NCBI GenBank assembly: GCA_012798135.1
Contig: JAAZNU010000334.1
Location: 1 to 9,470 of the forward strand
Direction: 5' to 3'
DNA length: 9,470 nt
Origin: Veillonellaceae bacterium
GTDB lineage: Bacteria; Bacillota_C; Negativicutes; UBA1444
Shown here: positions 399-9,447 of the stretch, piece after piece
How the letters are laid out: the number at the start of each line of letters is the position of its first letter
Numbering within the stretch: position 1 is the stretch's first letter
The notes under the pieces: generated by a model
Told to the model about the DNA's origin: nothing
What the model saw: the letters and a program-made list of their open reading frames with translations, nothing else
The model's database searches: none
Made by a program: the position numbers and the translations under genes

Positions 399-801
399 TA
401 TTACATATGCACGAGTTTTTTATGATAATTTTCCGTTTTATTTATCGATTGGCATGACTTACGATCAGTATTGGAATGAAGATAACACTTTAACGATTTA
501 TTACCGAAAGGCTTTCGAATTAGAAAAATCCCGAAAGAATCAAGAACTTTGGTTGCAAGGTTTGTATTTTTATGAAGCGTTGTGTGATGTTTCGCCTGTT
601 TTGCAAGCTTTTGCGAAGGCGGGTACAAAACCGTTGCCGTATTTAGATAAACCATATGCTCTATCAGCAAAAGAAATCAAAGAACAAAAAGAAACTATCG
701 AAAGAGAAAATCGTAAAAAAGCGATGGCGATGTTCAGCAGATGGGCAGAGCGCTTCAAAGAACATAGTAGAGAGGAAGTGATTGCAGATGGCAACAATTG
801 A
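358..801 (+). CDS. Tail assembly chaperone, frameshifted C-terminal extension (gpT-like part of gpGT)
   Basis: This is the -1 frame extension of the chaperone. A ribosome that slips on GGGAAAC (352-358) continues with CGT at 358, giving a fusion of 102 + 147 = 249 residues with junction EDEGN-RQVGSELV. The extension contains the conserved stretch of Firmicutes phage tail chaperones, including SIGMTYDQYW, NQELWLQGLYFYEALCDV and GTKPLPY, followed by a charged helix (about the last 45 residues, KEIKEQKETIERENRKK onwards). In the lambda model the T part binds the tape measure protein and recruits tube subunits. A separate start at GTG 364 is conceivable, with GAGGG about 9 bases upstream, but that purine run is also part of the slippery region, and the complete frameshift signal makes a fusion far more likely. 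The TGA stop (799-801) overlaps the first 14 bases of the tape measure gene. Confidence 0.88.
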   Translation, partial: RQVGSELVNPASPHITYARVFYDNFPFYLSIGMTYDQYWNEDNTLTIYYRKAFELEKSRKNQELWLQGLYFYEALCDVSPVLQAFAKAGTKPLPYLDKPYALSAKEIKEQKETIERENRKKAMAMFSRWAERFKEHSREEVIADGNN

Positions 802-3800
802 TAGTTTGCAAATTGAGATAAGACAAGATTCGCAAAAAGCCGTAAATGGTATAGATGCGTTGGTAGTATCTCTCAACAAGCTCAAAGCTGCCGCGCGCGG
901 TGGAGTGGGGCTTACTGCTGTCAGCAATCAGTTAAAAAAATTAAACGAGGCAATAAACACATTACAAGACCCGTCCGGCAAAATATCTCAACTTGTATCG
1001 GCTCTCAAACCTCTCGAAAGCATTGGTAAATCTAATCTAAACTCCACGTTAAATCAACTCAAAAAATTACCGGAGATTACAAAACAATTAGCGGCAATTA
1101 ACATGGACGCTTTCGCCACCCAGATAAACAGAGTGGTTGTAGCGTTGAAGCCTTTGGCTGACGAAATGAATAAAGTTGCCGCCGGATTCAGTGCGTTCCC
1201 ATCTCGGATCCAAAGACTTATCACACAAAACGAAAAGCTTTCAGCATCCAATAGTAAAACCGGAAAATCTTTTGGTGTCATGGGAACGGGTTTTAGCAGT
1301 CTACAAGTAAAATTTGGTATATACTATATGATGCTCCGTAGAGTTGCATCGATAATGGCCGATTGGGTTACCGAGAGCAATAATTACGTTGAAAACATCA
1401 ATCTTTTCACAGTAGCGATGGGTAAATACGCAAACGAAGCTCTCGAATATGCTAAAACCGTTCAAAAAACGATGGGCATCGATATGTCCGAATGGATACG
1501 CAATCAAGGTATCTTTATGCAGATTGCTACCGGTTTTGGGGTGGTAGAGGATAAAGCTTACCAAATGAGCAAGGGGCTCACTCAGATAAGTTATGATATA
1601 TCGTCCTTTTTTAATATCCCGATCGGAGAATCCCTCGAAAAAGTACAGTCCGGTATTTCGGGAGAATTGGAACCGCTCCGTAGGCTCGGTTATGCTCTTG
1701 ATGTCGCGACATTACAGCAGATAGCATATAATAATGGTATTACAACGAACATTAACAAAATGACACAGGCGCAGAAATCGCAGTTGAGATATATTGCAAT
1801 TATGCGACAGAGCAAAAACGTCATGGGTGATATGTCCAGAACATTGATTACTCCTGCTAACGCTTTGCGTATTTTGAATCAGCAAATTACGCAATTGAAA
1901 AGAGCGCTGGGAGATATGCTTATTCCCATCCTCATAAAAATTATTCCGTATGTACAAGCTTTCGTTAAGGTGCTTACAAACGCAGTTGCAAAAGTAGCAA
2001 CATTGTTAGGCTTTAAATTGCCGACGATAGATTATACAGGTTTAGGAGCAGTCACGGCCGGAGCAACAGCGGCAGAAGAAGCCATTAACGATACGACCGA
2101 TGCGACTAAAAAATTAAAAAGTACTCTTGCTGGTTTCGACGAACTGAATATAATCTCGAAAGACGATGGATCTGACACAACAAGCACAAGTGGCTCGACT
2201 AATAATTTTGATTTACCGCTGGATTTGTCAAAATATGATTACGGTTTTTTGAATGGGATTAAAACGCAAGTCGACGAAATCGCAGAGAAGATTCAAAAAC
2301 CGTTTGAAACAGCTTTAAAATTAGCGGGCGCGATTGCGGTCGCGATCGGGGCATGGAAGATCGCACAAGGTGTATGGGATTTTATATCGGGTCTTAAAAA
2401 TCTCGCCGGGCTTGCTGGTATATCCGGTTTAGGCGGAGGTTTCGCCGAAGCAGCGGGCGCGGTCGCCGGGATAGCGGGAACGCTTACTGTAATGATTTTA
2501 CGCACCATTGATTTATGGAACAAGAGTAAGTATTTCCGTGAGGGAGTGCAAGCGATATGGGATACTTTGAAAAATACGTACAATTGGGTGGTTAATGTTG
2601 CGATCCCGGGAGTGGGCGATTTTTTCAAAAATCTCATCCCGGAAAATATGCGCCAGTCCGTCGAAAATTTCTTAAAACCCATTGGGGAGGTTTTAAAGGT
2701 TTTCGACGTTGACGCCGCCGATTTACTAATAACTTTGAGCGCGATTGCTTTAATGTTTACACCAGCCGCTCCTTTCGGCGTAGCGCTGTTGGCGTTCGAG
2801 GGTATAACATTAGCGATTAGAGGAATCGGATGGGCAGCATCGGACGTAATAGAACCGGTTGATTTGTTTGGTGAAGGTATTAGTGATATTACCAAAAACA
2901 AAGTACAACCCTTTGTTGATAAAATGAGGGAACTGGATGATACTATAACCACTTTAAATTGGACACATATGACAATCGACCAGTCGATTGTAGACGATGT
3001 CAAACAAAAAGTCCATGCAATTGTAGAAACGATTGTTAACGAGCTTGACAGCGATCGAAATGAAGCATTATCGACACTTGCTCCGTTAAAGAAAGCACTC
3101 GGGGAGGATGCTTATAACGATTTGATCGCAGACAATACGGCGTATTACGATAGCATTATATCCAAAGTGCAAGACGGAGAGGCGCGCATCAATGAAATAA
3201 TGGCGGGAGCAAAAGCACAAAACCGCGAATTAACACAAGCCGAAGCAGACGAAATCAAACGCATACAAGCGGACATGATGGATACAGGGGTACGACACCT
3301 CTCCGAAACCGAAGTCGAATATACCAAAATAATGACACGACTAAAAAACAATTCGACGAGGATAACGTTAGAGCAAGCGTCCGAAATTATAAAAAATGCT
3401 AAGGAAACTCGTGACAAAGCGATTGACGCCGCGGAAACACAGTATGCAAAAATAAAACTCGAAGCAGACAGGATGCTCGAAGTTGGAGCAATCAATAAAG
3501 ACGAATACAAAAAAATTATCGACGCCGCCGAAAAGACAAAAGACGATACTATCTCAGCAGCAAACGAACAATACAATACGATTACCGAAACTACTAAAAC
3601 GAAACTCGGCCATCTTGCTAAATATATTGATTTTACAAGCGGTGACATTAAAGGCAAGTGGGAAGTCTTTTGTGAGGGTGTGGCAAAAGTTTGGAACGAA
3701 AAGTGGGAACAAATAAAAAACACATTTGATCAGTGGAAACAAAACATTGAAAGCGGCTGGAAGGTGTTCAAAACTGTGTTCGAAGCTGCATGGAAATCTT

Positions 3801-4294
3801 TTTGGAAAGGTATAGGCAATTTCTTTATTGATATTTGGAATGGTATAGTTGGTGCTTTTGAAAACGCTTTAAATGGCGTGATCGATGGCATTAACGCAGT
3901 GATTAGAGCTTATAACAGGGTCGTGTTAAACATACCCGGCATTGGGTATAAGATAAGAATATCGACAATCGAACATATTGATTTCGGTAGAGTGCCACGA
4001 TTAGCAAATGGAGGCATACCAGACGAGGGGCAATTATTTGTCGCTCGCGAAGCTGGTGCCGAACTTGTCGGCGGTTTTGGTAACAAAACGGCGGTTATGA
4101 ACAACGAGCAAATTGTTGCGGCGGTGTCCGAGGGTGTGTATCAAGCTGTTGTCGCAGCAATGCCAAAATCGAACGAACAAAGCGTCGAATTAAAAGTTTA
4201 TCTCGACGGTAAAGAAATCACCAAAAAGGTTGAAAAAGTACAAAACGAACGGGGCGCGAATTTGTTGCCGGGGGGTGTAGTGTTTGGCTGGTAG
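788..4294 (+). CDS. Tail tape measure protein
   Basis: This 1168-residue protein sets tail length and probably passes into the host membrane during DNA injection. Features in order: a coiled N-terminus (about 1-150); the conserved tape-measure core (about 155-400) with FTVAMGKYANEALEYA and the GISGELEPLRRLGYALD stretch; a Ser/Thr-rich low-complexity linker (about 455-470); hydrophobic, glycine-rich segments (about 505-580 and 640-690) that could insert in membranes; a long charged coiled coil rich in EA/AK (about 790-940); a tryptophan-rich amphipathic region (about 950-1050); and the typical C-terminal motif LANGGIPDEGQLFVAREAGA (from about 1071). The ATG at 788 is preferred over the TTG at 782 because GAGGAAG (772-778) is then 9 bases away. 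The gene overlaps the gpGT end by 14 bases and the next gene by 11. At about 0.15 nm per residue, the usual tape-measure scaling, the tail would be roughly 175 nm long; that figure is an inference. Confidence 0.95.
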   Translation: MATIDSLQIEIRQDSQKAVNGIDALVVSLNKLKAAARGGVGLTAVSNQLKKLNEAINTLQDPSGKISQLVSALKPLESIGKSNLNSTLNQLKKLPEITKQLAAINMDAFATQINRVVVALKPLADEMNKVAAGFSAFPSRIQRLITQNEKLSASNSKTGKSFGVMGTGFSSLQVKFGIYYMMLRRVASIMADWVTESNNYVENINLFTVAMGKYANEALEYAKTVQKTMGIDMSEWIRNQGIFMQIATGFGVVEDKAYQMSKGLTQISYDISSFFNIPIGESLEKVQSGISGELEPLRRLGYALDVATLQQIAYNNGITTNINKMTQAQKSQLRYIAIMRQSKNVMGDMSRTLITPANALRILNQQITQLKRALGDMLIPILIKIIPYVQAFVKVLTNAVAKVATLLGFKLPTIDYTGLGAVTAGATAAEEAINDTTDATKKLKSTLAGFDELNIISKDDGSDTTSTSGSTNNFDLPLDLSKYDYGFLNGIKTQVDEIAEKIQKPFETALKLAGAIAVAIGAWKIAQGVWDFISGLKNLAGLAGISGLGGGFAEAAGAVAGIAGTLTVMILRTIDLWNKSKYFREGVQAIWDTLKNTYNWVVNVAIPGVGDFFKNLIPENMRQSVENFLKPIGEVLKVFDVDAADLLITLSAIALMFTPAAPFGVALLAFEGITLAIRGIGWAASDVIEPVDLFGEGISDITKNKVQPFVDKMRELDDTITTLNWTHMTIDQSIVDDVKQKVHAIVETIVNELDSDRNEALSTLAPLKKALGEDAYNDLIADNTAYYDSIISKVQDGEARINEIMAGAKAQNRELTQAEADEIKRIQADMMDTGVRHLSETEVEYTKIMTRLKNNSTRITLEQASEIIKNAKETRDKAIDAAETQYAKIKLEADRMLEVGAINKDEYKKIIDAAEKTKDDTISAANEQYNTITETTKTKLGHLAKYIDFTSGDIKGKWEVFCEGVAKVWNEKWEQIKNTFDQWKQNIESGWKVFKTVFEAAWKSFWKGIGNFFIDIWNGIVGAFENALNGVIDGINAVIRAYNRVVLNIPGIGYKIRISTIEHIDFGRVPRLANGGIPDEGQLFVAREAGAELVGGFGNKTAVMNNEQIVAAVSEGVYQAVVAAMPKSNEQSVELKVYLDGKEITKKVEKVQNERGANLLPGGVVFGW

Positions 4295-4670
4295 AGCTTT
4301 GGTGTCTATTGATGGCTATGATTTGCCGGAACCATCTACATATAGCGGTAATACTGCAACGCTTGTTGACGCGGGTCGTAATCTCGAAGGCAAGATGATA
4401 GGCTCTGTTATTCGTGACGATGTGGCAAAAGTTGAAATAACATGGAATTATTTAACGGTCGAGCAATGGGCGAATATCAACAAAAAATTCAAAACTTCTG
4501 CCGGAGGTAAATTCATAAACTTAGTGACATTTTTCGACCAAAGTGCCGGAGGATGGGTCACGAAAGAAATGTATATCAGCGATCGTAGTGCCGGAATGTG
4601 GAGGAGAGATCCTATTTCCGGCGACATCCTCGGTTGGAAAGATTGTAAACTTAATTTAATTGAGGTATAA
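4284..4670 (+). CDS. Small conserved tail-tip/baseplate protein, DUF6711-like
   Basis: This 128-residue protein is encoded directly after the tape measure gene, the place of the distal tail (Dit-type) or a tail-completion protein. It is predicted to be mostly beta-strand, with conserved-looking stretches VIRDDVAKVEITWNYLT (residues 42-58), TFFDQSAGGWVTKEMYISD (82-100) and MWRRDPISGDILGWKDCKLN (105-124). The opening MAGRALVSIDGYDLPEPSTY resembles the N-terminus of small Clostridia phage tail proteins (kxxInGvdlPxPS). The start is TTG at 4284, with a G-rich site GGGGGGTG (4270-4277) 6 bases upstream, overlapping the end of the tape measure gene. The next in-frame candidates (TTG 4299, GTG 4302) would remove the conserved opening. 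Length is far below a full Dit (about 250 residues), so it may be equivalent to the Dit N-terminal ring domain. The family label is from memory and tentative. Confidence 0.6.
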   Translation: MAGRALVSIDGYDLPEPSTYSGNTATLVDAGRNLEGKMIGSVIRDDVAKVEITWNYLTVEQWANINKKFKTSAGGKFINLVTFFDQSAGGWVTKEMYISDRSAGMWRRDPISGDILGWKDCKLNLIEV

Positions 4671-4685
4671 AAGGAGGGTTATCAG

Positions 4686-6479
4686 ATGCAAACAGTTAGT
4701 ACAGCATGGGTTAATAATCAAAAACGAACAATTCTTGAAGAAAGTTTTGTCGAACTGTTTTATGATATAACAGATCCCGAAGCTATTGCCGAGGCGAGTG
4801 TATCTGATAACGGCACTTGTTACATATCTAACACACAGCAAATAACGAACAATATAATTAAAACCTTTACACCTTACGCGACGCTGGAACGTAATGTTTG
4901 GGTGTTGGATGGTAGTCGAAAAAATATTCCCGAAAATAATTATAAAGCGGGATATGTAAGTAAATATATTTGCTCCGAATCGAGTTCTTTCGAGCAAATT
5001 CCCGTTATTGAGATTTCTTTCGCCCAAACGCATACACAATCTATACCCGGAATAACGATAATTTGGGCGGAAGAATATAACGAATACGCTACGGATTTTA
5101 AAGTTGTCGCATATAACGACAACGAAATTATAGCTGAAAAACGAATTATAGACAACGCATCTACGACATCGATTGTCGAAATGAATATTGATAATTATAA
5201 TCGAATTTGTATTGAAATATTAAAATGGTGTCTGCCCTATCATCGTGCGAGAATAACCGATGTTTTTGTGGGCGTGCGTAAAACATATGATAAATCGCAA
5301 TTGGTTAGTTTTGAATATAATCAGTATGTTGATCCGTTAAGTGCTAATCTCCCAAAAACAAGTATAAATGTGGAAATAGACAATACGTCGGATATATATA
5401 ACCCATTTTATAATGAGGGTATGTCTAAATATCTCACACCTCGACAACAAATTCGCGCACGATACGGCTATAAAGTTGATGAAGAAATAGAATGGATAAA
5501 TGGCGGAACTTTTTATCTGTCCGAATGGGAAATCCCGCAGAACAGCAGAACCGCTAAAATCGAGGCGAGAGATCTACTGGAATTTATGAACGCGACATAT
5601 ATGAAGGGTCTTTATTCCTCGACGGGTATCGATTTGTATACATTAGCGCAATCTGTATTGCAAGAGGCTAATCTACCGTTAAATAAAGATGGTAGTGTAA
5701 AATGGACAATTGACGAATCGCTTAAAAATATTTATACAAATGCTGCCTTGCCTTTAACTACTTTGTCGCAATGTTTACAAATGATTGCGAACGCGAGCCA
5801 ATGTGTTTTGTATGTAGATCGTGATGATATATTACATATCGAACCAATCGGGAATATTATAAAAGATTATACGATTGACAAATTCAATAGTTATAAAAAA
5901 GCTGAAATCTCTTTAACCAAGGCTCTCGAAAGAGTTGATGTGACGATTTATAATAATACACCAAGAGAAACCGCCGTTGCTATATACAATGGTACAATGA
6001 ATATAAACGGCACATCAAGCACATGGATAAAATATACAGACCCTGCGATAGATGTTGCCGCAACGGTGACAAACGGCACATTGATATCGGCACAATATTA
6101 TACAAACGCTTGCTTGCTAACAATTAGTGGCAATGGTGCAGTTGAAATTACCATAACCGGACGACCTCTTGAAACCTCAGAAACAATTTATACGTTATCG
6201 ACGGGGCTTACAAACGGGGAAACTCAAAAGGTACTAAACCCCTTAATCACAACATCAGAACGAGCCGCGAATGTGGCAGACTGGGTAAAAAATTATTTGT
6301 CTAATAGGAAAATATTATCAGCAGAATGGAGAGCAGATCCTCGTTTAGATGCACTTGACATAATAAATATACAAAACGATTATGGTACATATCCGATGAG
6401 GACAACCTCTGTAACTTTTACTTTTAAAGGGGCGTTCCGAGGCGAAAGTGAGGGTAGATTACTAAATGATATGGCGTGA
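4686..6479 (+). CDS. Baseplate hub-like tail protein with probable galactose-binding-like domain
   Basis: This 597-residue protein is probably a tail-tip or baseplate hub protein replacing Dit/Tal. Residues about 60-205 read like a discoidin/galactose-binding jelly roll: ATLERNVWVLDGS (65-77), GYVSKYI, PVIEISFAQTHTQSIPGITI, ATDFKVVAYNDNEI and CLPYHRARITDVFVG. Residues about 209-290 (FEYNQYVDPLSANLP, INVEIDNTSDIYNPF, LTPRQQIRARYGY, INGGTFYLSEWEIPQ) match the beta domain of phage gp27/Tal-like hub proteins. About 298-400 is a helical and strand insert (LYTLAQSVLQEANLP, ASQCVLYVDRDDILHIEPIG). The C-terminus (about 518-590) has the hub-type ending WRADPRLDALDIINI and FTFKGAFRGESEGRL. The start is ATG 4686, with AAGGAGGG (4671-4678) 7 bases upstream. 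No peptidase or lysozyme domain is seen. It overlaps the next gene by 14 bases. The hub assignment is by pattern and position; the sugar-binding role is inferred. Confidence 0.72.
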   Translation: MQTVSTAWVNNQKRTILEESFVELFYDITDPEAIAEASVSDNGTCYISNTQQITNNIIKTFTPYATLERNVWVLDGSRKNIPENNYKAGYVSKYICSESSSFEQIPVIEISFAQTHTQSIPGITIIWAEEYNEYATDFKVVAYNDNEIIAEKRIIDNASTTSIVEMNIDNYNRICIEILKWCLPYHRARITDVFVGVRKTYDKSQLVSFEYNQYVDPLSANLPKTSINVEIDNTSDIYNPFYNEGMSKYLTPRQQIRARYGYKVDEEIEWINGGTFYLSEWEIPQNSRTAKIEARDLLEFMNATYMKGLYSSTGIDLYTLAQSVLQEANLPLNKDGSVKWTIDESLKNIYTNAALPLTTLSQCLQMIANASQCVLYVDRDDILHIEPIGNIIKDYTIDKFNSYKKAEISLTKALERVDVTIYNNTPRETAVAIYNGTMNINGTSSTWIKYTDPAIDVAATVTNGTLISAQYYTNACLLTISGNGAVEITITGRPLETSETIYTLSTGLTNGETQKVLNPLITTSERAANVADWVKNYLSNRKILSAEWRADPRLDALDIINIQNDYGTYPMRTTSVTFTFKGAFRGESEGRLLNDMA

Positions 6480-6948
6480 TCCTATATATGACCGTACACA
6501 AGCAGACATAGATTATGCTATCGCTAAAATAACCGAATGGAAAAGATTGATAACGAGAGGAGAGCGTGTTAATGTTATTGAACTCAAAGGTTGTTTAAAT
6601 CTTAGCGATATAACTCGTATAGAAGATAACATTAAATATCTCTCGGACACATTAAACGCATTAGGATATAATAGTCATATTTTTTATAAAACATGGGCGA
6701 TAGACGGACTACCCGATATAAACGATGTCCGCCGCATTTTAAATAACGTTCTCGAAATAATAGAATCATATCATCAACCAAACGATGTTCCTTTTATCCC
6801 GAACAGTCTGTTGACATATCAAGACGTAAATTCCTTGGAATTAAATTTGTTTAAAATAAAGCAAATGATTGATTTGATGATTATGAGTTTCCCAAAAAGC
6901 GGAAAATTAACAAGTAACGGACTACATATTTTGCCTATGAGGAGATGA
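6466..6948 (+). CDS. Conserved phage tail-tip protein of unknown function (YDRTQAD/KGxxNxSDxxRIE motif)
   Basis: This 160-residue protein is largely alpha-helical. It carries the signature IYDRTQADIDYAI (residues 7-19) followed by ELKGCLNLSDITRIEDNIKYL (split around 39-59), a paired motif common in structural proteins between the hub and fibre genes of Clostridia phages. The spacing (YDRT...KG.xN..D..RIE.N..yL) suggests a small helical connector or fibre-attachment module. The N-terminal Trp-Arg-Asp-Pro and a second helical region (residues about 80-145, DINDVRRILNNVLEIIESY and DVNSLELNLFKIKQMIDLM) make two similar halves, possibly an internal duplication. The ATG at 6466 has GTGAGGGT (6448-6455) upstream and lies inside the hub gene end, which suggests translational coupling. 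No enzyme motif is present. Confidence 0.65.
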   Translation: MIWRDPIYDRTQADIDYAIAKITEWKRLITRGERVNVIELKGCLNLSDITRIEDNIKYLSDTLNALGYNSHIFYKTWAIDGLPDINDVRRILNNVLEIIESYHQPNDVPFIPNSLLTYQDVNSLELNLFKIKQMIDLMIMSFPKSGKLTSNGLHILPMRR

Positions 6949-6955
6949 TATAAAG

Positions 6956-7252
6956 ATGGCGTATATAGCAAGAGATATAAAGGACAGGATCGCGTTTGGT
7001 GACGATTGTTTTTATGTTGAAAATCTGCCGGACGGTAGAATCAGACTTATTCCAGCGCCTGACAGTGTAGTCGAAACTGGAACGGACATAAATAAAGCAT
7101 TATTGCAGCCGATTGAGGATAGTGTAGCATGGTTAATCAATAGATTTTTTGATGATATAACGAGCAATCCTTTTATGATTGCTTTCGAAGATTTATCGGG
7201 AGTGACTGTAACCGGCGTTTGGAATCAAACGCTGAAAAGAATCGAATGTTAA
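6956..7252 (+). CDS. Small conserved phage structural protein, probable fibre adaptor
   Basis: This 98-residue protein contains VENLPDGRIRLIPAPDSVVE (residues 21-40) and TGTDINKALLQPIEDSVAWL (41-60). The 'PxPDsVxExGTxINKalLqpIED' pattern recurs in tail-fibre or structural proteins of Clostridia phages, just before the receptor-binding gene. The C-terminus (SGVTVTGVWNQTLKRIEC) looks like a beta-strand cap and ends in Cys. The start ATG 6956 has AGGAGATGA (6940-6948) about 7 bases upstream, overlapping the stop of the previous gene. Its place between the helical connector and the large variable fibre protein suggests it helps join or assemble that fibre; this is inferred from position only. Confidence 0.62.
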   Translation: MAYIARDIKDRIAFGDDCFYVENLPDGRIRLIPAPDSVVETGTDINKALLQPIEDSVAWLINRFFDDITSNPFMIAFEDLSGVTVTGVWNQTLKRIEC

Positions 7253-7265
7253 AAGGTGATTAAAA

Positions 7266-8993
7266 ATGGCACAAACAATTTCAAATTTGCCTATTGGAGC
7301 AAAAATAGAAATACCTGTGAAAGCAGAATATCAATCGTATTTTGGCTCAACAATTGAGTTTAGGATTGCAGATAAAAACCACACAGGTTATCCTGTTAAT
7401 TCAGTAACTTTAATTACTGACAAAATAATACAACTCTTACCTTTTGACGGCAAAGAAGGTTTGAACCCTGATTTATCCCGACAAAATTACGGAAACAATA
7501 GATATTCACAATCTAATATCCGACAATGGCTTAATAGTACTGCCACATCGGGGTGGTATTCTGCGCAACATACATATGACGCGCCGCCGAGTTCGTCTAA
7601 CGTATCGGTAAATGCATACGACACACGAGCGGGATTTCTCGCGATCTTCGATGCGACATTCGTCAACGCGATGTTGAATACAACCTTGACAGTTGTAAAA
7701 AACACCGTAACAGACGGCGGTGGCTATGAAACGGTTACGGATAAAATGTTTTTGGCATCCACCACAGAAGTTGGACTTGCGAACGAAAACAGCATTGCCG
7801 AAGGCACGAAGCTGGCACTATTTACGGACGACGCAAGCCGTGTTGCATACTGCACGCAAGAAGCGATTGATACAAGCACATATACGTACAATCCGATGAC
7901 TTCGCAAGCATGGCCCTGGTGGCTTCGCACGCCTTTTTCGTCGGAGGCCTTCTACGTCCGCGACGTCCGTCCGACCGGCTCGTTGGCCGGCAACGACGCG
8001 TTCAACGGGACCATGGGCATTCGCCCGCTTTGTAATGTTTCATCGTCGTCGTTGGTATCAGATACTACAAATACAAACGATTGTTATACTTTAATATTAT
8101 GGAATATACCACCATCTACTCCATCATTTATTGACGTGCCGACTTCCGTTTATGGTAATAACACTGCCGTTATCTCATGGGGCGCGTCAACTGATCCGGA
8201 AAATAGTTTGGGCGGTTATATTTTGCAACGTTCCGTCGACGGGGGTACGTTTGTACAAATATATAAAGGTGCGAGTTTATCATACACTGATACTATTACA
8301 TTAGGGTGGACAACCGTAACTTATCGTGTGTGTGCGTATGATACCTCCGATACTCAAAGCGATTGGCAAACCAGCGCGACACGGACGGTAAACAACAATC
8401 AACCCCCGGTTATTTCCGGAACAGATGAAAACCTCGGCGAAAAGACAGACGGTTTTACCATTACTTACACAGTCACCGACGCCGAAAATGATACGGTTAC
8501 CGTTACGGAAAAAATAGACAATGTGACTTTACGTACATATATTGTTACATTAGGGGCAACGAATACTCTTGCGGTCACAGATATGACATGGTTATCTTTG
8601 TTAAATGGCTCTCACACAATAACCATTACTGCGTCTGATGTAAACGGGAATTCTGCGTCCAGAATTTATATTTTTAATAAAAACATTAACTCTTTCACAA
8701 TCCAAAACAGCACACCATTATCAGCGTCGGTAAGACCAACTCGTATAAAAATGGTTGTAACTCGTAATATTCCTGCGGGAGCGACGTTTAAAGTTTATGT
8801 TTGTAATAATGGTTTCGACGAAACGCCGACATGGGAAGATGCAACATCGTCCGTTACAGGGGGATTGGTACATGTTTTTGCAAATACAATCAAAACCGCC
8901 GGAAATTGGGGAGTATTGATTAAAGTAGAAGTGAATCGCGGGTCAGCGGAAGGCGCTTGTTTTGTTAGTCAGATAGGAGGTAATTTTGAATGA
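7266..8993 (+). CDS. Receptor-binding/tail-fibre protein with DUF6273 C-type-lectin-like domain; probable DGR variable protein
   Basis: This 575-residue protein is likely exposed at the tail tip. Residues about 1-30 form a short attachment lead (MAQTISNLPIGAKIEIPVKA). About 30-260 form a DUF6273-type domain related to the C-type-lectin fold used by diversity-generating retroelement targets, with SQSNIRQWLNS, DKMFLASTTEVGL, then PWWLRTP (217-223) and the ending GIRPLCN (251-257). Residues 224-250 between the last two are the putative hypervariable binding face. About 283-376 is a fibronectin type III-like module (TAVISWGASTDPENSLGGYI, TVTYRVCAYD). About 381-472 is an Ig/cadherin-like module (ITYTVTDAENDTVTV, GSHTITITASDVNGN), and 474-575 is a further beta-sandwich (ARPTRIKM-type strand, NWGVLIKVEVNRG). 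The start ATG 7266 follows AAAGGTGAT (7252-7260). The G+C content of the lectin-like part is clearly higher than that of both flanks. Receptor binding is inferred from the fold and position; a cell-wall-binding fibre without active mutagenesis is the alternative. Confidence 0.82.
   Translation: MAQTISNLPIGAKIEIPVKAEYQSYFGSTIEFRIADKNHTGYPVNSVTLITDKIIQLLPFDGKEGLNPDLSRQNYGNNRYSQSNIRQWLNSTATSGWYSAQHTYDAPPSSSNVSVNAYDTRAGFLAIFDATFVNAMLNTTLTVVKNTVTDGGGYETVTDKMFLASTTEVGLANENSIAEGTKLALFTDDASRVAYCTQEAIDTSTYTYNPMTSQAWPWWLRTPFSSEAFYVRDVRPTGSLAGNDAFNGTMGIRPLCNVSSSSLVSDTTNTNDCYTLILWNIPPSTPSFIDVPTSVYGNNTAVISWGASTDPENSLGGYILQRSVDGGTFVQIYKGASLSYTDTITLGWTTVTYRVCAYDTSDTQSDWQTSATRTVNNNQPPVISGTDENLGEKTDGFTITYTVTDAENDTVTVTEKIDNVTLRTYIVTLGATNTLAVTDMTWLSLLNGSHTITITASDVNGNSASRIYIFNKNINSFTIQNSTPLSASVRPTRIKMVVTRNIPAGATFKVYVCNNGFDETPTWEDATSSVTGGLVHVFANTIKTAGNWGVLIKVEVNRGSAEGACFVSQIGGNFE
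7911..8036 (+). other. Candidate DGR variable region (VR)
   Basis: The segment encodes WPWWLRTP, then residues 224-250, then GIRPLCN. From 7941 to 8030 there are, by hand count, only 12 A and 61 G+C in 90 bases, against roughly 30% G+C at 7261-7320 and 27% at 8641-8700. Nearly every codon from 7938 to 8018 ends in C or G, with GCC, TTC, TAC, CGC, GAC, ACC, GGC and AAC at positions that would be AAC in a template. This is what adenine-specific retrohoming from an AAC-rich template leaves behind. Conserved ends would be TGGTGGCTTCGCACGCC and GGCATTCGCCCGCTTTG, the latter serving as the initiation-of-homing end. No template copy or reverse transcriptase gene is in the window, so the exact borders are estimates. 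Confidence 0.72.
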
Positions 8994-9172: not shown

Positions 9173-9313
9173 ATGTTTACAGAAGAAAGCGGCTTGGTAA
9201 AAACATGGGTGAGATTGATTGAGCAAAAAGTTTATACAATCGAAGATGTGCCCATGTTGAGCAATTTAAAAGAAATGGTAAAAAATGTTTTAGAAAGGAG
9301 TGATGAAAAATGA
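9173..9313 (+). CDS. XkdX-like (CD1375-type) phage mini-protein, copy 1
   Basis: This 46-residue protein reads MFTEESGLVKTWVRLIEQ... with IEDVPMLSNLKEMV further on. The layout W..LI....YTIEDVP.L.NL.E.V..VL is that of the very short XkdX/CD1375-type proteins encoded between the tail-fibre and lysis genes of Bacillota phages; their function is unknown. The start ATG 9173 directly follows the previous stop, with GGGGGT (9161-9166) 6 bases upstream. The TGA (9311-9313) overlaps the ATG of the second copy as ATGA. Its close similarity to the next gene, both in protein and in bases, shows a tandem duplication. Confidence 0.7.
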   Translation: MFTEESGLVKTWVRLIEQKVYTIEDVPMLSNLKEMVKNVLERSDEK

Positions 9314-9447
9314 CGTTTACAAAAAATAGCGGTCTTGTAAAAACATGGGTCAGCTTGATTTTATGCGGAGTGTTTACGATTGACCAAGTACCTAATTTGT
9401 ACAATTTGCGAGAAGTTGTACAGGAAGTACTCAACGAAACAAAATGA
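9310..9447 (+). CDS. XkdX-like (CD1375-type) phage mini-protein, copy 2
   Basis: This 45-residue protein reads MTFTKNSGLVKTWVSLILCG... followed by FTIDQVPNLYNLREVVQEVL. It aligns along its whole length with the preceding mini-protein (shared SGLVKTWV, LI, TI, VP.L.NL.E.V..VL) at a spacing of 140 bases. The differences include an LCG turn in place of EQK, closer to the 'G.y/f tidqvP' form typical of the family. The site AAAGGAG (9294-9300) is 9 bases upstream of ATG 9310. The role is unknown for the family; the position suggests a late structural or assembly function. Confidence 0.7.
   Translation: MTFTKNSGLVKTWVSLILCGVFTIDQVPNLYNLREVVQEVLNETK

Follow-up and report, generated by a model that had tools for sequence, protein, structure and literature searches.

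Diversity-generating retroelements (DGRs) copy a template RNA with errors at its adenines and then write the copy into a target gene. The tentaclins of phages nd4 and nd12 are diversified in this way; in the accessible text of the study that describes them (PMC10743442), they combine a DUF6273 head, a hypermutated hairpin and an immunoglobulin (Ig)-like stalk, and lie inside a DGR cassette in every phage genome analysed. A tentaclin gene on contig JAAZNU010000334.1 (assembly GCA_012798135.1, Veillonellaceae bacterium), whose entire 9,470 bp were analysed and are called the window below, shares with them these parts, the position of the variable region (VR) and the template pattern, but it occupies the slot without the cassette and carries a head that, unlike theirs, appears to be of another lineage than its stalk. 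This gene is probably an orphan, in which a DGR-diversified head of foreign origin has been frozen.

An empty slot for the DGR cassette

In the viral contigs L001-L003 (loci are numbered with an L; nd12 is L004 and nd4 is L005), the order is a 98-amino-acid (98-aa) gene, avd, the template repeat (TR), the reverse transcriptase (RT) gene and the tentaclin gene, and the nd12 and nd4 phages have the same order of avd, TR, RT and tentaclin. Each of L001-L003 contains two additional copies of the VR segment. The copy just upstream of the tentaclin in L001 is a typical TR, all 15 of its differences from the VR falling on adenines of the copy, and is followed by an RT gene (8968-10053; RVT_1, E = 6e-18). 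The second extra copy in L001-L003 is a second VR, located in another DUF6273 gene. An Avd-like gene precedes the TR in L001-type loci (NCBIfam DivGenRetAVD, E = 3e-6, under the curated cut-off).

In the window, the tentaclin begins 13 bp past the 98-aa gene, and the Avd-TR-RT cassette is absent from this conserved slot. No second copy of the segment that could represent a TR was found within the 9,470 bp, tblastn with two DGR RT queries and with Avd gave no match in the window, and RVT_1 was found in none of the nine window proteins scanned. A preliminary description of this DNA had presented the locus as the strongest candidate for a special system in the window and had proposed to look for a near copy of the segment together with a DGR-type RT. 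Run within the contig, that search returned neither, and with the slot for Avd, TR and RT empty an active system in the window is not supported.

A census covered 84 tentaclin loci, each with the start of the gene and no less than 1.5 kb of sequence before it, and only exact duplicates were removed. In 71 of these loci the tentaclin is directly preceded by an RT match of 250 aa or more, in 2 the match is partial, and 11, including the window, have none. The slot is empty in L042 and L054 as it is in the window. In L031 the C-terminal end of the RT is all that remains, and L058 has lost the TR and the RT core but retains the beginning of Avd and the RT C-terminus. These empty slots and remnants together indicate that cassette loss has occurred more than once. 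Because TR and VR are repeated sequences and one sample may contain related phages, misassembly of metagenomic reads might in principle have produced the empty slot or the chimeric protein described below. This is most improbable, given that the 5' junction is not within the TR/VR repeat but at a normal gene start with an AAGGTG motif, and that the slots of L042 and L054 match that of the window.

The variable region bears the imprint of a DGR

The window VR was compared only with TRs of its relatives. Relative to the L021 TR (99 bases) it has 25 mismatches, of which 20 fall on the 31 adenines and 5 on the remaining 68 bases; relative to the nd12 TR, 18 mismatches are at A and 7 at other bases. 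In 48 relatives, 707 of the 726 differences between VR and TR are at TR adenines (707 of 1,376 adenines compared with 19 of 3,536 other bases), but a locus entered this set only if it had 5 or more mismatches and at least 85% of them fell on an A of the copy, and some of the loci are near-copies of one another. Upstream copies in L008 (12 of 15 mismatches at A), L049 (5 of 6) and L088 (15 of 26) were left out of this set, and the VR motif search missed L012 and L042.

When the VRs are set in a shared 38-codon frame, the window agrees with the family at its fixed positions, and its variation falls on the template-adenine positions. At the 14 sites of the latter kind the template codon is AAC, AAT or TAC in the majority of 37-46 relatives. 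The preliminary description, which had proposed a DGR-type variable region, also named 14 randomised sites. Its general proposal is supported by the A-limited match to TRs of relatives bearing intact DGRs, and its expectation that homologues should differ chiefly at such codons, and not evenly over the domain, agrees with what we found. At the level of single sites, 11 (229, 230, 233, 235, 241-244, 246, 247 and 249) correspond to adenine-bearing template codons and site 237 does so in part (its TR codon is mostly GAC or GAT), whereas 228 and 232 are fixed positions, and the template-adenine codons 224, 227 and 250 had been overlooked.

The composition given in that description is also accurate. 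Positions 7941-8030 contain exactly 12 A and 61 G+C. Among all 9,381 90-base intervals, at least 61 G+C occurs in 16, every one of which starts at 7902-7943, and at most 12 A occurs in 61, of which 60 are at the VR segment and one is at 2401. Nearly all codons of the frame 7914-8027 are NNC or NNG, as had been claimed (33 of 38, versus 192 of 537 elsewhere in the gene; Fisher p = 5e-10), the PWWLRTP...GIRP frame is present at residues 217-254, and the DUF6273-type domain is matched by Pfam at residues 45-259 (E = 6e-34), N-terminal as in tentaclins. G+C in the frame is 0.68, while other stretches of the gene range from 0.34 to 0.49. C-ending codons occupy 10 of the 14 variable sites, compared with 97 of the 537 codons elsewhere in the gene. 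None of the 19 fixed VR codons has an avoidable A, whereas 176 of 395 codons elsewhere in the gene do; A-free fixed codons are expected if the VR is copied from a template that is barred from carrying A at fixed positions. The A-limited mismatches and the A-free fixed codons together indicate that the VR was written by a DGR, with no date implied. The comparison with relatives that have intact DGRs thus strongly supports the identification of this segment as a DGR-type VR in a putative receptor-binding domain.

DUF6273 proteins without a DGR do exist, for example in phage AR9, whose record yielded no RVT_1 match, and the window domain might likewise never have been a DGR target, its composition being coincidental. 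We find this hardly conceivable. The AR9 protein lacks the imprint (NNC fraction of 0.09 versus 0.07 in the rest, compared with 0.56 versus 0.18 in the window), and the window VR fits templates far better than its codon-shuffled versions do (5 non-A mismatches versus at least 27). DGRs elsewhere have a hairpin downstream of the VR; a script found no perfect stem of at least 6 bp downstream of the VR in the window and a 6-bp stem in 7 of the 14 relatives printed.

Two further observations concern VRs in other records. In the RT-less records L056, L062 and L076 (13, 39 and 45 kb), tentaclin-like heads keep a C-ending, GC-rich VR, and these are further candidates for orphan VRs. In L092, a tentaclin-type gene (4231-5775) directly follows a gene of the 98-aa type and has neither an RT nor a recognisable WWLR...GVRP variable region.

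Head and stalk are of different ancestry

The window tentaclin is 48-57% identical to the nd12, nd4 and L001-L003 proteins (56-57% to those of L001-L003 alone), and its alignment with the nd12 and nd4 proteins reaches the C-terminal end. Identity shifts near residue 275: for L008 it falls from 0.70 (head) to 0.47 (stalk), and for L002 it rises from 0.47 (head) to 0.68 (stalk). None of 128 comparators, most of which were best whole-protein hits, exceeds 0.6 in both parts. We inferred maximum-likelihood trees of 29 sequences for each part, leaving out L054 (too short). In the head tree the window lies in a clade with ten nd12-type loci and L024 (support 100/99), whereas in the stalk tree it groups with L001-L003 (100/98). 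Grouping the head with the L001 type was rejected by the approximately unbiased (AU) test (p-AU = 0.0086), as was grouping the stalk with the nd12 type (p-AU = 4.6e-7). The window and the ten nd12-type loci do not form an exact clade in the head tree because L024 falls among them, but joining them was not rejected (p-AU = 0.129). An earlier whole-protein tree had placed the window beside L001-L003 and L027; that placement was driven by the stalk and is superseded by the two-part trees.

Head-stalk discordance is higher in the window than in any other of 63 full-length tentaclins (0.232 versus 0.109 in the next). Among seven loci compared, the upstream tail genes of the window resemble those of L001-L003 and not those of nd12 or nd4, save for the end of the 98-aa gene. 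As far as descent can be read from sequence, these results show a head of apparent nd12 type joined to a stalk and tail module of L001 type.

State of the variable region after the presumed cassette loss

Twelve of the 14 template-adenine codons can be derived from family template codons by adenine changes alone. The other two, GAG (Glu227) and ATG (Met250), correspond to none of the 46 TR codons that the family has at these positions. According to the accessible text of the tentaclin study (PMC10743442), the residues Q, M, K, E and W cannot arise by this hypermutation, and in DGR-bearing pairs they occupy 0 of 538 VR codons opposite AAC or AAT. If the rate is taken as 1 in 538, the probability of two or more such residues among 14 sites is 3e-4. 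Glu227 and Met250 suggest that ordinary mutation has taken place since the last rewriting.

The comparison of VR change without a cassette rests on one pair, L095/L096 from two genomes, which differ at 2 of 1,806 gene bases and at none in the VR. By comparison, seven of eight DGR-bearing pairs with at most 13 differences per 600 flanking bases differ at 13-23 of 114 VR bases. The eighth pair, the near-identical L025/L026, shows no change in the VR. In the DGR-bearing pair L013/L017 the flanks differ at 0 of 600 bases and the VRs at 19 of 114. The L095 genome gave no RVT_1 match, and the L096 and L115 genomes have RVT_1 matches of unassigned kind. A search of these three genomes (completeness unstated) for VR copies returned only the VR itself and short matches with E of at least 0.17, and its positive control worked.

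An RT and a TR elsewhere in the phage genome might still diversify the tentaclin from a distance. A second VR is located 8-12 kb or more from the TR in L001-L003, nd12 and nd4, and thus one TR serves distant VRs; moreover, the window imprint has hardly decayed and the contig is short. Nevertheless, such remote diversification seems rather unlikely. The DGR RTs found by RT query in tentaclin loci with a visible start are all in the slot, no RVT_1 was found elsewhere in 11 whole records without an intact RT (most records being fragments), and Glu227 and Met250 are incompatible with the known templates.

Alternatively, a DGR belonging to a second phage that occupies the same cell might rewrite the VR in trans. 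Since some genomes hold several tentaclin loci, a single cell can bring different tentaclin prophages together, and the RT-less records L056, L062 and L076 keep the imprint in their VRs. The window VR also agrees with nd12-type TRs at 61-63 of 68-70 non-A positions. We have largely dropped this likeness as proof of trans-writing, because the whole head is of nd12 type and the match needs no such process. At 0.087, the fraction of mismatches to L023 is small, yet it falls within the range of pairs of similar head identity (minimum 0.072), and the VRs of the cassette-less L095/L096 pair are identical. Rewriting in trans is, in our judgement, very unlikely.

A proposed single head-replacing recombination

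Because the head swap and the missing cassette are found at one place, a single block replacement is the simplest history. The explanation that we favour, and to which we give about an even chance, is that a once DGR-diversified nd12-type head sits on an L001-type stalk, that the cassette was lost through one head-replacing recombination and that the VR no longer hypermutates. The imprint suggests that the head was formerly diversified by a DGR. In one recombination, whose two ends lay immediately upstream of the tentaclin start and around residue 275, avd, TR, RT and the resident head would have been swapped for a bare, already diversified foreign head. The 14 sites would since have ceased to hypermutate, unless an RT and a TR act from elsewhere, and Glu227 and Met250 would have been acquired afterwards by ordinary mutation.

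Several points weigh against this explanation. The tree groups were picked after the identities had been seen. The phage genome is incomplete and the RT and TR may lie elsewhere in it, the imprint is still strong and could also reflect recent activity, and a template of the window's own with AAG-type codons would account for Glu227 and Met250 without any loss. In addition, the other four cassette-less genes compared (L031, L042, L056 and L074) have no head-stalk discordance; the link between head swap and cassette loss therefore rests on a single case, and cassettes are not generally lost through a head swap.

The loss of the cassette and the exchange of the head might also have been separate events, the head having been swapped together with its own cassette or within a resident one and avd, TR and RT deleted later or earlier. 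L031 and L042 show loss without head exchange, and L021 and L008 show weaker head-stalk discordance beside an intact cassette. In the window, however, the two changes coincide in place and no remnant of avd, TR or RT is left, for which one event is simpler, and we consider separate events unlikely. A more general interpretation, and one that we hold to be distinctly doubtful, is that tentaclin phages can give up their mutator in exchange for a finished head: a head that the DGR of another lineage has already diversified would be captured, VR included, in place of the Avd-TR-RT-head block, with possible later rewriting in trans when a phage that has a matching TR is present in the cell. If this were true, diversified heads would form a pool common to phage lineages, and recombination would turn diversification off and on.

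Features of the window and its relatives

The coordinates of the tentaclin gene, its parts and the genes upstream are given in Table 1.

Table 1. Coordinates of the tentaclin gene, its predicted parts and the upstream genes
Feature	Position	Strand	Basis or remark
Tentaclin gene, 575 aa	7266..8993	+	Open reading frame; DUF6273; phrog_10993 (Hoc-like) match over residues 1-575
Head, residues 1 to ~275, apparent nd12-type ancestry	7266..8090 (3' end approximate)	+	Identity profile, 128-protein comparison, trees
Ig-like stalk, residues ~276-575, apparent L001-type ancestry	8091..8990	+	Identity profile, 128-protein comparison, trees; structural matches
VR	7929..8030	+	Aligns with TRs of relatives; homology begins at 7929 and ends after 8030
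14 template-adenine codons	7935..8015	+	Residues 224, 227, 229, 230, 233, 235, 241-244, 246, 247, 249, 250
13-bp gap with AAGGTG ribosome-binding-like motif	7253..7265	+	Slot of avd, TR and RT in relatives
98-aa gene	6956..7252	+	Precedes DGR cassette in L001-L003; 73-76% identical there
Tail genes upstream	782..6948	+	Homologues in L001-L003, order kept
Tape measure gene	782-4294	+	First of the upstream tail genes
Further tail genes	4284-4670, 4686-6479, 6466-6948	+	Between tape measure and 98-aa gene

VR residues form the strands at residues 230-234 and 240-244, in keeping with the hypermutated beta-hairpin by which tentaclins are recognised, and fibronectin type III (FnIII)/Ig-like structural matches cover residues 280-474 and beyond. 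A Foldseek search with the head gave a single clear match, the immunoglobulin A (IgA) peptidase 9qa6; C-lectins scored weakly, and BPP-1 Mtd was absent among the matches listed. PADLOC gave no match in the window that would indicate a role in defence.

Megablast found no near-identical phage records of the window, and no relatives were confirmed through its 597-aa gene. Relatives in genome contigs were not found with a single tentaclin query and were recovered with a tentaclin alignment as query. At 90% identity, the tentaclin clusters P0088, P0040 and P0044 have 10,507, 2,453 and 985 members and the window's cluster has 1; the large clusters may represent swarms of DGR variants. The bacterial genomes G015, G093 and G359, and the one with L089 and L090, each carry two or three separate tentaclin loci. 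Near the window end, a 46-base direct repeat (9175-9220 and 9315-9360, 83% identical, spacing 140) sits at the starts of two small adjoining reading frames and resembles a duplicated short gene.

Implications and comparison with known systems

The locus bears on the question of what follows when a hypervariable receptor-binding domain loses its mutator: the last variant may be locked in, decay or be passed to other phages. As described in the available part of the largest DGR survey (PMC8144416), remote targets, whose VR does not adjoin an RT, would go undetected, and VRs like that of the window would likewise escape such a survey. The codon imprint, with A-free fixed codons and C-ending variable codons, offers a simple marker for orphan VRs without an RT, and residues that templates cannot produce offer a rough gauge of decay. 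We found no cassette-less tentaclin or swapped head in the literature on tentaclins, DUF6273 and orphan, lost, inactive, degenerate or mosaic DGR targets (mostly non-subscription sources, with few preprints).

The DGR targets of Treponema denticola are reportedly of the bacterial lipoprotein type, unlike the phage tentaclin of the window. As in the window, target genes are left after loss of the DGR core in that species, 8 of 17 isolates having target genes without TR or RT, whereas the accessible text of that study describes no head exchange (PMC4891356). In crAss-like phages, too, a DGR target is conserved in genomes without DGRs, but these phages belong to another group and the target is a tail collar fibre protein, according to the part of the report available (PMC8867640). 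The DUF6273 DGR targets of Faecalibacterium prophages resemble the window tentaclin in having the VR at the C-terminal end of DUF6273 and Hoc-like relatives, and differ from it in that the prophages have intact DGRs, as stated in the accessible sections (PMC11792537). DGRs, tentaclins and RT-less DGR targets are thus already known, and what is new here is a swapped head beside an empty slot.
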